Source: an uncultured Silvanigrella sp. | GTDB taxonomy: Bacteria > Bdellovibrionota_B > Oligoflexia > Silvanigrellales > Silvanigrellaceae | Assembly (NCBI GenBank): GCA_903933385.1 | Contig: CAIZJW010000233.1 | Span: forward strand, 1 to 35,647 | Length of the DNA stretch: 35,647 nucleotides | Direction of reading: 5' to 3' | In this document: in pieces, positions 13,832 through 20,773 of the stretch | Position numbering within the stretch: position 1 is the first letter of the stretch | How the letters are laid out: the number at the start of each line of letters is the position of its first letter | Program-made: the position numbers and the translations under genes | Notes under the pieces: generated by a model | Told to the model about the DNA's origin: nothing | Seen by the model: only the letters and a program-made list of their open reading frames with translations | The model's database searches: none

Positions 13832-14806
13832 ATGACCACATATCATAACCTTGCCTTCTACAAATTCGTCAGAATTGAAAATGTGTCCGCAACAGCCGCC
13901 GCTTTTCGCGAGTTGACTGCTTTGTTGGACATTAAGGGAACTCTGATTTTTGCAGAGGAAGGTTTGAATGGTTATGTGGCGGCAAGTCCCGAATCCGCGG
14001 AAAAGTTCATCGCCTATTGTCGGGCCGATGAACGATTTTCGGACATTGAATTCAAGGTTTCATTTAGCGAATTCCATCCTTACACCCGCATGCTTGTCAA
14101 ACAGAAAACAGAAATCGTGACCATGGGTCGCACGGGCATTGATCCTGCCCATTTCACTGGCAAGCATGTGGATGGAAAAACGCTGAAGCAGTGGCTCGAT
14201 AACGGCGAAGAAGTTATTTTGCTCGACACAAGAAACGACTACGAAACGAAACTTGGAACATTCAAAAACGCCATAATCCCGGACATCAAAACATTCCGTA
14301 CCTTTCCAGGATGGGTGGAAGAAAACTTCCTACAGCACAAGAACAAGCGCGTTGTAACATTTTGTACCGGTGGAATAAGGTGCGAAAAGGCCACAGCTTA
14401 CATGCGGCAAACGGGTTTTGATGATGTGTATCAAATTCAGGGTGGAATTCTCAAATACTTCGAGCAAACGAAGCAAGCAGCCGGAGACAACCACTACGAA
14501 GGCGATTGCTTCGTATTTGATCACAGGGTCGCAGTGAACGCGAAGCTCAACAAAACAGAACACGACATGTGTTACGTGTGTTGGGAGACTCTGAGCCCTG
14601 AAGACAAAAAGAGCCCGCTCTACAAAGCAAACGAATACTGCCCTCATTGCATCGATGAAACACAGCGAAAATTAGAAGACCGAAAGCGTAAGGCAATTGA
14701 GACAAATCAACGCGCCCTTGAACGTCGCTTTGAACGTGCCAAAATTGCGCGTTCAAAGTGGGATTCTAAAGGCGAGCAATCAAAATTGATTGATTCCAAC
14801 GTTTGA
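13832..14806 (+). CDS. trhO: tRNA uridine(34) hydroxylase TrhO (rhodanese-domain, UPF0176/YceA)
   Basis: TrhO makes 5-hydroxyuridine at the wobble base of certain tRNAs using oxygen. The 324-aa length is usual. An N-terminal acylphosphatase-like domain (LAFYKFVRIENV; GTLIFAEEGLNGYVA) precedes a rhodanese domain with LLDTRNDYETKLGTFKNAI and the active-site loop C178-T-G-G-I-R-C184. The C-terminal part has two CxxC pairs (Cys247/250 and Cys270/273), as in family members, followed by a basic helical tail. GAGGA lies about 6 nt upstream of the ATG. It follows the small unknown gene by 16 nt and ends 42 nt from the convergent aldehyde dehydrogenase gene. Confidence 0.93.
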   Translation: MTTYHNLAFYKFVRIENVSATAAAFRELTALLDIKGTLIFAEEGLNGYVAASPESAEKFIAYCRADERFSDIEFKVSFSEFHPYTRMLVKQKTEIVTMGRTGIDPAHFTGKHVDGKTLKQWLDNGEEVILLDTRNDYETKLGTFKNAIIPDIKTFRTFPGWVEENFLQHKNKRVVTFCTGGIRCEKATAYMRQTGFDDVYQIQGGILKYFEQTKQAAGDNHYEGDCFVFDHRVAVNAKLNKTEHDMCYVCWETLSPEDKKSPLYKANEYCPHCIDETQRKLEDRKRKAIETNQRALERRFERAKIARSKWDSKGEQSKLIDSNV

Positions 14807-14848: not shown

Positions 14849-16213
14849 TCACGAGCGGATGTGCAGGGCCTTGGCGTGGCAAAAGGCAAAAATTCCAAGC
14901 TTCGATAGAGTTGAGCCCACTCCAGAATGTCCGCGCCCTGACCAGGGCAGCCATGCTGAAACACGATCACAACAATTCAAGTAACCCGTTCCAGTATTCA
15001 CCTCGGCAAGAAGTTTTTTACCACGCTCCAAATTGCGACAGTAAACCGATGAAGTGAGCCCGTAATCGGAATCATTCATGAGCTCAATTGCCTGAGTGTC
15101 GTTTTTCACCTTCATAACGCCAATAAGCGGCCCGAACGTTTCTTCACGCATTAAATCCATGCTGTGACTCGCATTCAATAGGAGCGTGGGGGGAAAGAAG
15201 TTACCTTTGCCCTCTTGAGGCTTGCCCCCCAAAACCAACTGAGCCCCCTTTGCGATAGCATCATCAACCTGTGCCTTCAGGAAAGACAAATGATTACCGC
15301 GAGTGATAGCACCACAAAGTGTTGCTGCATCAAGAGGATCACCCATTTTCCACGCTTGCATTTTAGCTTTTAATTGCTCAACGAATGCGTCGTGAATTTT
15401 TTCGTGCACATAAACTCTTTCAACTGCACAACAGCTTTGCCCGTTGTTGTAGAGCACGCCTTCGGCAACGGCATCAGCAACAGCTTCCAAGTCACCGCAT
15501 TCTTCAGTCACATAAAGCGGGTCTTTGCCTCCAAGCTCCATGATGAGACGTGTCATACGTCCAGCAAGAGTTTCGGAAATTTTCTTTCCCGTGGCGTAAG
15601 AGCCGGTAAAGCCAACGCAGTCGAAGGGAAGTTGCAACAGCTGCGCTCCGATATCGCCCTCTCCAACAACTGAAACAAAAGCATTTTGAGGCACACCAGC
15701 TTCATGAAGAAGCCGGGTGAGATGAAGGCCTGTGAGTGTTGAGAACTCCGATGGTTTATAAACAACAGTATTGCCGCAAAGCAACGCCGGTAGAAATACA
15801 TTGAAACCGACGAGAATAGGATAGTTCCAGGCCGAAATATTCAGCACAACTCCAAGCGGATCAAACGCCAGAATCTCTTCCGTATTGCCATCTTGGCGTA
15901 CTTTTTCAGGAGCCAGCGTTTTTTCAATTTCTTCGGCAAAAAAGCGAATTTTGTTGAGACTTCCATTCACCTCATTGCGAGCCTGCTGCAGGGGCTTACC
16001 CATTTCAAGCGACATATCACGCGCAACAATCTCAACGTCGCGCTTGAGTAAATCACTGAATTTTTTGATCATCGCAACGCGTTCAGAAAGAGAGCGAGCA
16101 GCCCAAGCTGGTTGTGCTTCACGAGCGACTGCAAACTTGTCTCGCACAGAGACACCATCATCGGTTTCGATCGTTCTGATGAGCTCGCCTGTGGCTGGAT
16201 TCATGATCTGCAT
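14849..16213 (-). CDS. NAD(P)-dependent aldehyde dehydrogenase
   Basis: This 454-aa ALDH-superfamily enzyme oxidises an aldehyde to the acid. It has the substrate and cofactor elements ISAWNYPILV and YKPSEFSTLTG, the nucleotide-binding GFTGSYATGKKI, the general base Glu in LIMELGGKDPLYV, and catalytic Cys261 in NNGQSCC. The start is ATG 16213 (MQIMNPATGELIRTI), with AGAGGAA 7 nt upstream; ATG 16231 has no good ribosome site. It is the last gene of the operon. In context it should oxidise a gamma-glutamyl-amino aldehyde or a semialdehyde; the exact substrate cannot be read from the sequence. Confidence 0.92.
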   Translation of the reverse strand: MQIMNPATGELIRTIETDDGVSVRDKFAVAREAQPAWAARSLSERVAMIKKFSDLLKRDVEIVARDMSLEMGKPLQQARNEVNGSLNKIRFFAEEIEKTLAPEKVRQDGNTEEILAFDPLGVVLNISAWNYPILVGFNVFLPALLCGNTVVYKPSEFSTLTGLHLTRLLHEAGVPQNAFVSVVGEGDIGAQLLQLPFDCVGFTGSYATGKKISETLAGRMTRLIMELGGKDPLYVTEECGDLEAVADAVAEGVLYNNGQSCCAVERVYVHEKIHDAFVEQLKAKMQAWKMGDPLDAATLCGAITRGNHLSFLKAQVDDAIAKGAQLVLGGKPQEGKGNFFPPTLLLNASHSMDLMREETFGPLIGVMKVKNDTQAIELMNDSDYGLTSSVYCRNLERGKKLLAEVNTGTGYLNCCDRVSAWLPWSGRGHSGVGSTLSKLGIFAFCHAKALHIRS

Positions 16214-16241
16214 AGATTGTTCCTCTTCCATTCTATAGGGC

Positions 16242-17006
16242 TCATATGCCGTTAAATTTCTTTTTCTTTACAGCGGTAATAAAGCTCTCAATAATTGGAT
16301 TCGGTTCATCAACGATACCCTTCAATGTTAGCGAAAACTCCGGATGCCATTGGACGGCAGCCAAGTAATTTCCTTGAAGTCCCTGATAGGTATAGGCCTC
16401 AATAATTCCATCGGTACTGCTGCATGCTTCAACCGATAGGCCTTGTCCAAGTGACTTGACACACTGATGGTGAACCGAATTCACCTCGAGATTTTCTTTT
16501 CCATAAAGAGACGCCAACCACCCCCCGCGAGTCAACGTGACGCCGTGATGGACGCGATCATAGGTTTGGGCATTACGATGCTCGGTTGGACTCTGCAGAA
16601 CAGTTGAAATATCTTGATGTAAGGTTCCGCCAAAATAAGCATTGAGAAGCTGAAACCCTCTACATATTCCGAGTATCGGCAACCCTTTTTTGAAAAAGAA
16701 ATCTGCGAGCGCAAGCTCATAGCAATCACGATGCTTGTCGCCTGGCCAGCGTTCCTTATCCAAATAGGGTTCCCCGTAGGTTTCCGGACAGAGGTCGGCT
16801 CCCCCTTGAAAAACAATTCCATCGAGTTGTTCAAGAATTGAATGAAGTTGTTTTTGTGGGAGATCGGGGATGAGAACTGGCAAAACCCCATCACGTGCCA
16901 CATAACGAGCCATGTCATTTTCCATGTAAGTCAGGCTCTTGTGCCCGAAAACCACACGCGTGGGATCGGGATACATGAAACATGCACTGAGGCCTATCTT
17001 CAACAT
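16242..17006 (-). CDS. PuuD-like gamma-glutamyl hydrolase (class I glutamine amidotransferase fold)
   Basis: The 254-aa protein has the peptidase C26/GATase fold of PuuD, which hydrolyses gamma-glutamyl-GABA to glutamate and GABA. The nucleophile is Cys115 in GICRGFQLLNAYFGG and the catalytic His/Glu are H221 and E223 in QWHPEFS. The early DGIVFQGGADLCPETYG matches the family oxyanion region. GGGAG lies about 8 nt before the ATG. It lies 31 nt behind the alcohol dehydrogenase gene and 28 nt before the aldehyde dehydrogenase. In this operon it should release glutamate from the oxidised gamma-glutamyl product. Confidence 0.9.
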   Translation of the reverse strand: MLKIGLSACFMYPDPTRVVFGHKSLTYMENDMARYVARDGVLPVLIPDLPQKQLHSILEQLDGIVFQGGADLCPETYGEPYLDKERWPGDKHRDCYELALADFFFKKGLPILGICRGFQLLNAYFGGTLHQDISTVLQSPTEHRNAQTYDRVHHGVTLTRGGWLASLYGKENLEVNSVHHQCVKSLGQGLSVEACSSTDGIIEAYTYQGLQGNYLAAVQWHPEFSLTLKGIVDEPNPIIESFITAVKKKKFNGI

Positions 17007-17037
17007 CTCGTATGCTCCCCGATTTTAAATGCTCTCA

Positions 17038-18180
17038 TTAAAGCTGAAATGCTTTCTTAAAAAGAGATTCGAAATCAGCACGTGTGACGGCTTTCGGATT
17101 ACATTGATGACATGCATCATCGATTGCCAAATCAGAGAGCTGGGATATTTTTCCAGCATCAAGATTCATTGCCTTCAACGATGATGGGATCCCAAGATTA
17201 CTATTTACAGTGCGCACCCAACCAATAAAGTCAGAGCTTCCTATAATTTTCTCAAGATACTTATACTTTTCAATGGAAACATCTTTATTAAATTCAAGTC
17301 CATAGGGCATCATCACAGCATTCGCCAAACCATGATGTGTATCGAAAACTGTGGAAAGGGGATGTGCCATAGAGTGAATGACACCCAGGCCTTTTTGGAA
17401 GGCCGTTGCACCCATGAGTGAAGCGATCATCATCTTTGCGCGCGCTTCCAGGTTGTTTGGGGATTTAGTTGCAGTCTCAATTGATTCTGAAATCAGACGA
17501 ATAGCTTCGACAGCAATGCCATCGCACAAAGGAGACACCCCCTTCGAAAGGAAGGCCTCAACATTGTGAGTGAGAGCATCCATGCCAGTGGCAGCCGTCA
17601 CATGTGCAGGCATATCAACTGACAGAGCCGGATCTGCAAAAACCTTATTGGCAATCAGACGCGGCGAAAATAGAATGCGTTTCTTGTGTGTTGAATTCTC
17701 GGCGATGACCGTGCTGCGACCTACTTCTGAGCCAGTTCCGCTGGTTGTAGGTACTGTGACAAAGGCGGGAATTTTCTCGGTCACGTACTTGTCGCCACCC
17801 AATGCGTCATCATAATCGAACAGAGGCCGTGAATGATAAGCCTTTAAAACAATCGCACGCGCCACATCGAGACTCGCTCCCCCGCCCAGGCCAATCACGC
17901 TGTCGCATTTTTCCTTATGAAAATGCTCAACTCCTGAAAGCACATCGGATTCGATGGGATTCTTTGAAATACCGGAATAAACCGTCGGTGACACACCAGA
18001 CTTTTCCAGCTCAGCAATGATCTTTTTAAAGAATCCCAACTGGGTGAGCGCATTGTCGGAAACAATAATCGGGCGCTTGAGATTCTGGCTCTGAAGGTAG
18101 GGAGCAAGCTCTTCAATGACACCCACTCCGAAGCGGATCGAAGTTGGAAAATTATAGCCGTAGCGATTTGTCCAGCTCAT
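17038..18180 (-). CDS. Iron-containing alcohol dehydrogenase
   Basis: This 380-aa group III alcohol dehydrogenase shows the nucleotide-binding GLGGGASLDVARAI, the TTSGTGSEVGRSTVI segment, and the metal-binding histidine pattern HSMAHPLSTVFDTHHG. Family members interconvert alcohols and aldehydes with NAD(H). GAGGAG lies close before the ATG and includes the stop of the upstream gene. It sits between a PuuA-like synthetase (10 nt) and a PuuD-like hydrolase (31 nt), where the E. coli puu pathway has an amine oxidase. This suggests oxidation of a gamma-glutamylated amino-alcohol, or disposal of a semialdehyde in the reducing direction. Confidence 0.92.
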   Translation of the reverse strand: MSWTNRYGYNFPTSIRFGVGVIEELAPYLQSQNLKRPIIVSDNALTQLGFFKKIIAELEKSGVSPTVYSGISKNPIESDVLSGVEHFHKEKCDSVIGLGGGASLDVARAIVLKAYHSRPLFDYDDALGGDKYVTEKIPAFVTVPTTSGTGSEVGRSTVIAENSTHKKRILFSPRLIANKVFADPALSVDMPAHVTAATGMDALTHNVEAFLSKGVSPLCDGIAVEAIRLISESIETATKSPNNLEARAKMMIASLMGATAFQKGLGVIHSMAHPLSTVFDTHHGLANAVMMPYGLEFNKDVSIEKYKYLEKIIGSSDFIGWVRTVNSNLGIPSSLKAMNLDAGKISQLSDLAIDDACHQCNPKAVTRADFESLFKKAFQL

Positions 18181-18190
18181 GATGTTCTCC

Positions 18191-19549
18191 TCAAATGATT
18201 TCGAAATAACGTTTCATTTCCCAATTGGTCACAGCTTTTGAATATTCACGCCACTCCCACAATCTTGTGTTTGTGAAGTGTTCAACAAACTCAGCGCCTA
18301 AAAGTTCTCTGGCGAGTTTGGATTCCTTCATAGCAGATGCTGCTTCAAATAAGTTGCGTGGCAATGTGCCATTGGATTTCTCGGCATAGCCATTGCCTTT
18401 GGTTTGTTTCACCTTGAGCGGCAATTTATTTTTAATTCCATACAAACCTGAGGCCAGCGCCGCTGCCATTGCCAAATATGGGTTTGCATCTGCACCGACC
18501 ACGCGCAACTCCATCCGTGTTGAAGTATCCGAACCAGGCAACGCACGTATGGCAGTCGTTCGATTGTCGACTCCCCAGGTGAGCGTTGTTGGCGCCCACG
18601 CGCCCTCGACAAGCCGCTTATAACTGTTCACAGTTGGAGCATACATTGGCGTGAGATATGGCATGCAGTGCAGGACTCCTGCCATATATTGCTTCATGGT
18701 CTCGCTCATGCGATCTGGCGATTTTCCGTCGAAGAAAATGTTCTTTCCATTCTTCCAAAGACTCTGATGAACATGCCCCGAACTTCCCGGCAAAGATGCA
18801 TTCCACTTTGCCATGAAAGTTGGTGTGATGCCGTGCAAACTTCCAATTTCTTTTACGGCTGCTTTGAAAAGGACCGCTCTGTCGGCTGCCTCAAGAATTT
18901 CACTGTATAGAATTGCCGCTTCATAAACTCCAGGGCCCGTTTCAGTGTGCAATCCCTCAAGAGGCACATTGTATTTGTTCAAAAGATCAAAAAGATCATT
19001 GAAAAATCCATTATTCTGAATTGGCCGAAGCAGAGAATAACCAAACATACCCTTCGAAAGGGTTTCAGGCTCATGAAAGCCTTTCTCATGAAGAGTTTCT
19101 GAACTTTCCATGAAATTGAACCATTCAAACTCTTGGCTGAAAAAAGGCTTGAATCCTAATTTCTCTGCTTGAGAACGAATTTTTTTGAGCAGATTTCTCG
19201 GGCAGAGGGGCAAGGGTTCACCTGCCGCACTCCAAAAATCGCCCAGAAAAAAGGGAACATCATGATCCCAGGGAACTGTGCGATAGGTGTCTAAATCAAG
19301 CTGCACCTGCGCGTCGGGATATCCAGAATGCCATCCAGTGTATGAAATATTATCATAGCAAACATCATTGGAATCCCAGCCCAAAACCACGTTGCAGAAT
19401 CCAAGGCCGCCATTCGCAACGGATTCAAACTTCTTCATGTGAATGACTTTGCCACGAAGAATGCCGTCGATGTCTGTGACGGCGAGCTTCACTTTTTGAC
19501 CTGGATATTTCTTAACCAATTGAACAACATCATTGCTTTTCGCTGCCAT
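18191..19549 (-). CDS. Glutamine-synthetase-family gamma-glutamyl-amine ligase (PuuA-like)
   Basis: The 452-aa protein belongs to the glutamine synthetase fold and resembles PuuA/GlnA-like ligases that join glutamate to an amine using ATP. Visible elements are KLAVTDIDGILRGK at the N-terminus, FSQEFEWFNF, TETGPGVYEAAI (metal/glutamate site), SSGHVHQSLWKNGKN (ATP/metal), and VDNRTTAIRA with ELRVVGADANPYLAMAAALA. The start is ATG 19549, with GGAGA about 7 nt upstream; the frame runs on to 19624 without a better start. It is first in the four-gene operon. Classical GlnA is unlikely, because of the operon and the GVYEAAI form of the glutamate motif. Confidence 0.9.
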   Translation of the reverse strand: MAAKSNDVVQLVKKYPGQKVKLAVTDIDGILRGKVIHMKKFESVANGGLGFCNVVLGWDSNDVCYDNISYTGWHSGYPDAQVQLDLDTYRTVPWDHDVPFFLGDFWSAAGEPLPLCPRNLLKKIRSQAEKLGFKPFFSQEFEWFNFMESSETLHEKGFHEPETLSKGMFGYSLLRPIQNNGFFNDLFDLLNKYNVPLEGLHTETGPGVYEAAILYSEILEAADRAVLFKAAVKEIGSLHGITPTFMAKWNASLPGSSGHVHQSLWKNGKNIFFDGKSPDRMSETMKQYMAGVLHCMPYLTPMYAPTVNSYKRLVEGAWAPTTLTWGVDNRTTAIRALPGSDTSTRMELRVVGADANPYLAMAAALASGLYGIKNKLPLKVKQTKGNGYAEKSNGTLPRNLFEAASAMKESKLARELLGAEFVEHFTNTRLWEWREYSKAVTNWEMKRYFEII

Positions 19550-19947
19550 TATCGAGTTCTCCACCACATCATCAGAACAGGGTGGATCTATCGTACGAGA
19601 GCCCGAGGCGCTGGTCAGGCACACTTGGGCGTCATAGCTTTGACTCTACGCTTTTCGATGCCGTTCATCTGAGATGGCTGAATGGAGTGCCATATAACGA
19701 ACGAGTATTTGAAGTTCTGTTCGGATAGCCAAAGGTTAATATTTCTTCAAAAAAAATGTTTGAGTCGGGGAGCTAGGCAGAATTAAGCCCATTTGCGGAT
19801 CGAGCCAAGCTTTGGTGTTTTGAGTTTTTTTGAATGTGCGTTTGAGCAGCTGTGCCCACAGGGCACCTAAAGTTTTACAACGCAAAATCAACGACAAAAG
19901 AATCAACAAAGCGGCGTGCGAGAGCTGTTTCTAAGCAACAAAAATCT
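19550..19947. other. Intergenic region upstream of the gamma-glutamylation operon
   Basis: No gene is supported here. The left part should contain the minus-strand promoter of the ligase operon, but I saw no clear sigma70 pair and no regulator gene. The right part carries the repeat described at 19773-19825. The sequence from about 19830 to 19940 shows nothing recognisable. Confidence 0.5.
19773..19825 (+). repeat. Composite dispersed repeat (left copy)
   Basis: Two repeated blocks abut here. Bases 19780-19794 (GAATTAAGCCCATTT) recur at 21016-21030, and 19773-19789 recur inverted at 30230-30246. Bases 19798-19825 recur perfectly, 28 of 28, at 22415-22442 in the same orientation. Both are followed by a T-rich run. 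This is the only copy where the two blocks are joined, so it may represent the intact form of an element end. Confidence 0.7.
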
Positions 19948-19976: not shown

Positions 19977-20000
19977 CTAGGCTTGACAAGTGGAGACGTT

Positions 20001-20354
20001 ATGAGCCGTTTTTCTCCCAAGAAATTATCAGCGACAGATGCCAATGACCTTGTGAATTCTAAGCTTAAATGGATTTTGGCAGGCTGTTCTCCCACTCGTG
20101 TCATACTGTTTGGTTCAGCTGCCCGCGGCGAACTCACCGATTATTCCGATGTTGACTTTGCAGTGCTATTTGAATCAGCTACCGCTCTGACAGAAGGCCG
20201 CAAAACACTTTTTTCTAGGCCGCGTGACGATGACTGGCCTCAGGATATTCTCTTGTTTGTTGAAGCTGATTTTGCGCGTAAAGTGCAAACCGGCGGTGTG
20301 TGCGAGATTATTGCAGACGAGGGTAAAGTGATTTTTCAAAGGAGTTTAGAGTGA
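20001..20354 (+). CDS. MNT-type nucleotidyltransferase (antitoxin-like)
   Basis: The 117-aa protein has the minimal nucleotidyltransferase motif G38-S39 in LFGSAARGELTDYSDVDFAV, with metal-binding Asp50 and Asp52. Proteins of this size are usually paired with a HEPN protein and, in studied MntA/HepT pairs, AMPylate and inactivate the HEPN toxin. ATG 20001 is preferred, with GGAG 6 nt upstream, over TTG 19983, which falls at the expected transcription start. The stop overlaps the GTG of the HEPN gene (GTGA), so the two are coupled. A third catalytic carboxylate could not be assigned with certainty (DILLFVEADF is a candidate). Confidence 0.9.
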   Translation: MSRFSPKKLSATDANDLVNSKLKWILAGCSPTRVILFGSAARGELTDYSDVDFAVLFESATALTEGRKTLFSRPRDDDWPQDILLFVEADFARKVQTGGVCEIIADEGKVIFQRSLE

Positions 20355-20773
20355 GCCCATCCAAGCAAGAGCGGATTTTTAAGAAGGAATACGCACACGA
20401 GCTCCTTAAAATTGCGAACGGCGATTTGGGTAGCGCGCGAATTCTGTTGCAGCACTTTGCGGAAGAGACGGGCCGGGCCGAAAATATTTTCTTTTTGTCG
20501 CAGCAGGCCATTGAAAAGTCTCTCAAAGCCGTTTTATGTGCTTTGGAACTTCCGGTTCCAATGGTTCATGAACTTGGAGTGCTGGTTGGAAAAATTCCGG
20601 CGTCGACCAATATGGAGTTTGGCTATGAGCTGGCGGGACTTTCAGAATTTGCGTCAATTCGCAGATACGAGGAGGGACCGCTAACGCTCACTCATGAAGA
20701 AGCCGCCGACGTAGTGTCCAAGACTGAATCAATTTTGCAGTGGGCTCAGAAAATCGTTCAATGCCACTCATAG
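20351..20773 (+). CDS. HEPN-domain protein (toxin-like partner of MNT)
   Basis: The 140-aa, mostly helical protein fits the HEPN family PF05168: GDLGSARILLQHF, then FFLSQQAIEKSLKAVL (residues 47-62), VHELGVLVGKI, and SEFASIRRYEEG. HEPN toxins are commonly RNases. The ribonuclease motif R-x4-6-H usually lies late in the domain. Here the only R-x4-H is Arg30-His35 in the first helix, so catalytic activity is uncertain. It starts with GTG overlapping the MNT stop. With the preceding gene it forms a two-gene module bracketed by repeats. Confidence 0.87.
   Translation: MSPSKQERIFKKEYAHELLKIANGDLGSARILLQHFAEETGRAENIFFLSQQAIEKSLKAVLCALELPVPMVHELGVLVGKIPASTNMEFGYELAGLSEFASIRRYEEGPLTLTHEEAADVVSKTESILQWAQKIVQCHS

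Follow-up and report, generated by a model that had tools for sequence, protein, structure and literature searches.

A conserved four-gene operon of an uncultured Silvanigrella, probably for ethanolamine utilisation through gamma-glutamylated intermediates

The window analysed here is the whole stretch of 35,647 nucleotides (nt) formed by positions 1 to 35,647 of contig CAIZJW010000233.1, from an uncultured Silvanigrella sp. (assembly GCA_903933385.1). It harbors a minus-strand operon of four open reading frames spanning positions 19549 to 14849, transcribed in the order glutamine synthetase-like ligase, iron-type alcohol dehydrogenase (Fe-ADH), PuuD-like hydrolase of the C26 class and aldehyde dehydrogenase (ALDH), with 10, 31 and 10 nt between successive genes (Table 1). 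The Pfam matches of all four proteins are well above the cut-offs and agree with the gene set given in a sequence-only reading of this DNA, whose coordinates are exact. In the NCBIfam models shown here, none of the four proteins reaches a curated cut-off. Two starts are candidates for the ligase, the ATG at 19549 and a longer GTG at 19624, of which the former is the more credible because a GGAG lies 9 nt upstream of it. Promoter and terminator scans of the operon remained near the shuffled background, and no clear operon promoter was found.

Table 1. Position and predicted function of the operon genes and of the genes flanking them in the window
Feature	Position	Strand	Pfam match
Glutamine synthetase-like gamma-glutamyl-amine ligase, putative gamma-glutamylethanolamide synthetase	18191..19549	-	PF00120, 321.7 bits
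Iron-type alcohol dehydrogenase, putative gamma-glutamylethanolamide dehydrogenase	17038..18180	-	PF00465, 140.6 bits; PF25137, 152.3 bits
PuuD-like class-I amidotransferase-fold hydrolase (C26), putative gamma-glutamylglycine hydrolase	16242..17006	-	PF07722, 188.8 bits
Aldehyde dehydrogenase, putative gamma-glutamyl-aminoacetaldehyde dehydrogenase	14849..16231	-	PF00171, 433.7 bits
Rhodanese-like gene, convergent flank of the operon	13832-14806		
Overlapping nucleotidyltransferase and HEPN genes, divergent, directly upstream of the operon	19983-20773	+	PF01909; PF05168

All the catalytic residues checked in the operon enzymes are intact. The ligase retains the GlnA-equivalent glutamate, ATP and metal residues (E129, E131, E212, E220, G265, H269, H271, R321, R339, R344, R355, E357 and R359). 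The flap residue Glu327 of GlnA is replaced by Trp in all 57 ligases that adjoin an Fe-ADH, and the Tyr179 position is mostly Phe in the same ligases; the Asp50 position falls in a gappy stretch of the alignment and nothing was drawn from it. The study of Streptomyces coelicolor GlnA4 considers substitutions at Glu327 (Phe in GlnA4, Trp in PauA7) and at Tyr179 as a mark of amine ligases, and argues that the loss of these residues lets the enzymes accept amines larger than ammonia (PMC6529630). In the Fe-ADH, the metal ligands D201, H205 and H273 and the H282/H283 pair are invariant in 58/58 operon homologues, as are C115, H221 and E223 of the hydrolase (34/34) and N136, E232 and C267 of the ALDH (51/51).

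The ligase phylogeny suggested as a check in the sequence-only reading places the Fe-ADH-linked ligases in one part of the tree, separate from PuuA, GlnA and the actinobacterial ligases linked to a short-chain dehydrogenase (SDR), although the tree is a quick one with long branches and its deep branching order is not firm. The Fe-ADHs of the window and of Halomonas also group together, apart from FucO, EutG and YiaY (100/100 support), a coarse test with these three outgroups only. The ligase of PDB entry 5dm3, from Chromohalobacter salexigens, was tried as a counterpart of the Halomonas ligase and rejected: it is only 33-36% identical to members of the window's ligase clade, groups with the SDR-linked ligases and was given no weight in judging the substrate.

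A search of genome contigs gave 80 related loci, in 45 of which an Fe-ADH adjoins the ligase. Recognisable PuuD and ALDH homologues are also present in 25 of the 35 Fe-ADH loci with enough downstream sequence, so the adjacency of the four genes is more than chance. The other ten include six Halomonas loci, in which the genes are arranged ligase-ALDH-ADH and a different amidotransferase comes next. Loci with the gene set and gene order of the window occur in Bdellovibrionota, Bacteroidota, Planctomycetota and Fangia. Moreover, actinobacterial loci of the Micrococcaceae keep an ethanolamine permease family member, ligase, PuuD and ALDH but carry an SDR beside them, indicating that the alcohol step has been swapped between enzyme families.

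The transporters linked to these loci are informative with respect to the substrate. A permease of the APC type lies directly upstream of the ligase in 21 of the 26 loci that have Fe-ADH, PuuD and enough upstream sequence. The near-full-length permeases of this APC cluster all match the TIGR00908 model "ethanolamine permease" (31/31, E<=1e-100), and each of the six that were scored singly is above its curated cut-off. In Halomonas, TRAP transporter genes precede the ligase, ALDH, Fe-ADH and amidotransferase genes; the ligase belongs to the same clade as that of the window (46-47% identity), and the TRAP solute-binding protein matches PDB 4UAB with 530 bits (E=2.3e-158). The latter is Csal_0678 of C. 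salexigens, whose structure was solved with ethanolamine (PMC12410723). Because of the APC permease linkage, the 4UAB-like protein of Halomonas and the Micrococcaceae permease/SDR loci, which are close to the GlnA4 arrangement, ethanolamine appears as the leading substrate candidate.

Taken with the homology of the enzymes, this conserved linkage suggests that the operon most likely specifies a gamma-glutamylation route that degrades ethanolamine in four steps. The ligase would use ATP to couple ethanolamine to the gamma-carboxyl of glutamate, giving gamma-glutamylethanolamide, in which the amine is masked. With NAD(P)+ as electron acceptor, the Fe-ADH would then turn the terminal alcohol group into an aldehyde, the ALDH would convert the aldehyde to gamma-glutamylglycine, and the PuuD-like hydrolase would release glycine and glutamate, the latter being recycled. 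The sequence-only reading had proposed amino-alcohol catabolism through glutamylation, and all the evidence fits this proposal, with ethanolamine backed by the transporters conserved in relatives.

The route is already known in kind. For C. salexigens, a published table (Table 2 of PMC9397018, with Gerlt 2016 and San Francisco 2015 as its sources) lists a gamma-glutamyl ethanolamine synthetase (PF00120), an iron-dependent dehydrogenase (PF00465), an ALDH (PF00171) and a gamma-glutamylglycine amidohydrolase (PF05013). An Fe-ADH in a glutamylation operon, presented as a surprise by the sequence-only reading, is therefore no novelty, since a PF00465 dehydrogenase was already listed there. The window operon resembles this system by its PF00120 ligase, PF00465 dehydrogenase and PF00171 ALDH, and its third gene is a candidate for the gamma-glutamylglycine hydrolase. 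The Halomonas version is likewise of the C. salexigens type, combining a ligase of the window's clade with an ethanolamine-type TRAP binding protein, although its ligase-ALDH-ADH order differs from the ligase-ADH-PuuD-ALDH order of the window. C. salexigens has a TRAP importer, Csal_0678 reportedly going back to Vetting 2015, whereas the known importers were not found in the window genome.

A second described case is the ethanolamine operon of Phaeobacter sp. MED193, which comprises EtoVWX, ETAGA, GAADDH, GETADH and GGAH, whose proteins are induced by growth on phosphoethanolamine and whose EtoX binds ethanolamine with a Kd of 7.9 uM (PMC10132767). The same four reactions are proposed there, but the operon is alphaproteobacterial and includes its TRAP importer, and no family for its dehydrogenase is given in the text consulted. 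The sequence-only reading invoked Streptomyces GlnA4 as a precedent for the logic. GlnA4 (SCO1613) has ligase activity on ethanolamine in vitro (PMC6529630), has ALDH and amidotransferase genes nearby and carries an aromatic residue at the Glu327 position. That residue is Phe in GlnA4 and Trp in the Fe-ADH-linked ligases. The alcohol step is assigned to the short-chain dehydrogenase SCO1611 (PMC6529630), so that the Chromohalobacter/Phaeobacter route is the closer precedent. The isopropylamine pathway of IpuC involves a hydroxylation to gamma-glutamylalaninol, whereas no oxygenase gene is present in the window operon.

The operon is thus a conserved and widespread relative of a route described in other bacteria, from which it is set apart by the C26 hydrolase, the host lineages and the lack of a recognised ethanolamine importer in the window genome. 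An ethanolamine route that is independent of B12 and was described only recently is thereby extended to Bdellovibrionota, Bacteroidota, Planctomycetota and others, in which the ligase is easily mistaken for a glutamine synthetase. A Trp at the GlnA-327 position with adjoining Fe-ADH, PuuD and ALDH genes makes a usable rule for annotation, and the pattern shows the alcohol-oxidising step and the importer to be exchangeable modules.

Other functions of the operon were weighed using the whole genome; as the assembly has 326 contigs and a completeness of 98%, absences from it are good but imperfect evidence. The B12-dependent eut route through ethanolamine ammonia-lyase was rejected, since EutB is absent (no PF06751 match in the genome). 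It is barely credible that the ligase should be just a glutamine synthetase of the ordinary kind among unrelated oxidoreductases. It has the same fold, and GlnA is its best NCBIfam match (241 bits against a cut-off of 429; it is also under the cut-off for type III glutamine synthetase), but the Trp at the Glu327 position and the conservation of the operon across phyla argue against this identity, as does the only other PF00120 protein of the genome, a separate type III glutamine synthetase (GSIII) at C87. It was rejected on the active site and the GSIII, the presence of which also means that glutamine supply is independent of the operon ligase. A Puu-type route for putrescine or cadaverine, in which the oxidase gene would lie elsewhere and the Fe-ADH would serve a later aldehyde intermediate, would share the glutamate-masking logic and the ligase, C26 hydrolase and ALDH families of the E. 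coli puu operon, the identities being all around 30% (29% for the ligase, 31% for PuuD and 32% for PuuC). It is very improbable, because the operon has an Fe-ADH instead of PuuB and PuuE, the ligase scores 202.9 bits with the PuuA model (cut-off 650), and the permeases linked in relatives are of the ethanolamine type; the hydrolase similarly reaches 85 bits with the NCBIfam PuuD model against a cut-off of 266. A puuB/puuE set elsewhere in the genome, which the sequence-only reading had named as a finding that would speak against its proposal, was looked for and not found. The PuuB query retrieved short fragments only (E>=3.3e-4), and the two best DAO matches are a GlpD-like protein and an unassigned DAO protein. 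Four class-III aminotransferases are present, namely an ornithine aminotransferase, an ArgD-type fusion, a GSA-aminotransferase-like protein (judged by its start) and one without assignment, which scores under every NCBIfam cut-off shown; none of the three scored against NCBIfam passed the gamma-aminobutyric acid (GABA) transaminase cut-off, and no clear PuuE was found. The Puu-type route was rejected on these PuuB and PuuE results.

The same chemistry could also act on another primary amino alcohol such as 3-aminopropanol, alaninol or 4-aminobutanol, yielding beta-alanine, alanine or GABA. The enzyme types do not set the chain length, and the best NCBIfam matches are a 4-hydroxybutyrate dehydrogenase for the Fe-ADH (333.6 bits, cut-off 500) and a succinic semialdehyde dehydrogenase for the ALDH (348.4 bits, cut-off 521), labels which, being under cut-off, were not taken for substrate assignment. 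The lack of the relatives' ethanolamine permease in the window's genus would also be in line with a different substrate, as the sequence-only reading had allowed. Nevertheless, the linked transporters of relatives are of the ethanolamine type in two unrelated families, which makes another amino alcohol unlikely, and less likely than ethanolamine.

Several observations weigh against the ethanolamine route. The hydrolase of the operon belongs to C26 (PF07722) and not to PF05013, the family given for C. salexigens, although hydrolysis of gamma-glutamylglycine by a C26 enzyme with an intact triad is plausible. No biochemically tested member of the window's ligase clade or Fe-ADH clade was found in the literature surveyed. 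In addition, 12 ligases of the same clade, all with the same Trp (12/12), are followed by genes for a kinase-like and a HAD protein instead, so that the pathway cannot be read from the sequence of the ligase alone. Finally, the search for an importer elsewhere in the genome, also recommended by the sequence-only reading, detected no TIGR00908 match, other PF13520 permease, TRAP DctP or EutH in the window genome (G000), and no TIGR00908 match in either of its genus-mates (G001 and G002); relatives carry APC or, in Halomonas, TRAP importers. An ethanolamine permease is present for example in the closest relatives outside the genus (L022 and L023).

G000, G001 and G002 all keep the operon. Three explanations offer themselves: loss of the importer with internal production of ethanolamine, uptake by a carrier that was not recognised, or a shift of substrate. 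It is conceivable, though rather doubtful, that in this genus the pathway has become uncoupled from import. Its substrate would then be an amino alcohol set free within the cell, such as ethanolamine from the turnover of phosphatidylethanolamine, or one taken up by an unknown carrier, or the pathway would have turned to another amino alcohol. Three genomes of the same family (G006, G008 and G011; e.g. loci L121 and L122) have ethanolamine permease matches of >600 bits without this ligase, and may use another ethanolamine route.

The loci with the kinase-like gene (L035, L044, L047, L048, L050, L052, L053, L058, L059, L060, L070 and L078) lack ADH, PuuD and ALDH. Two genes follow their ligase on its 3' side (e.g. 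L035 9407-11304), one for a 348-amino-acid protein that matches no Pfam family and the other for a phosphatase-like protein of the HAD-IIA type. The structure predicted for the former (AlphaFold, pLDDT 83) has an APH/choline-kinase-like fold, closest to the N-acetylhexosamine kinase NahK, amicoumacin kinase and a microcompartment aminopropanol kinase. This variant may represent another glutamylation pathway, one that includes a phosphorylation and a dephosphorylation.

Two loci, L021 (VGHE01000015.1) and L088 (RFOM01000002.1), come from metagenome-assembled genomes publicly titled Betaproteobacteria and Proteobacteria. These titles are probably wrong or outdated, because the genus-mates G001 and G002 have ligases identical to those of the two loci, and the nearest named relative apart from them is Bacteriovoracaceae. 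Next to the operon in the window, the overlapping PF01909 and PF05168 genes likely form an MNT/HEPN toxin-antitoxin pair.

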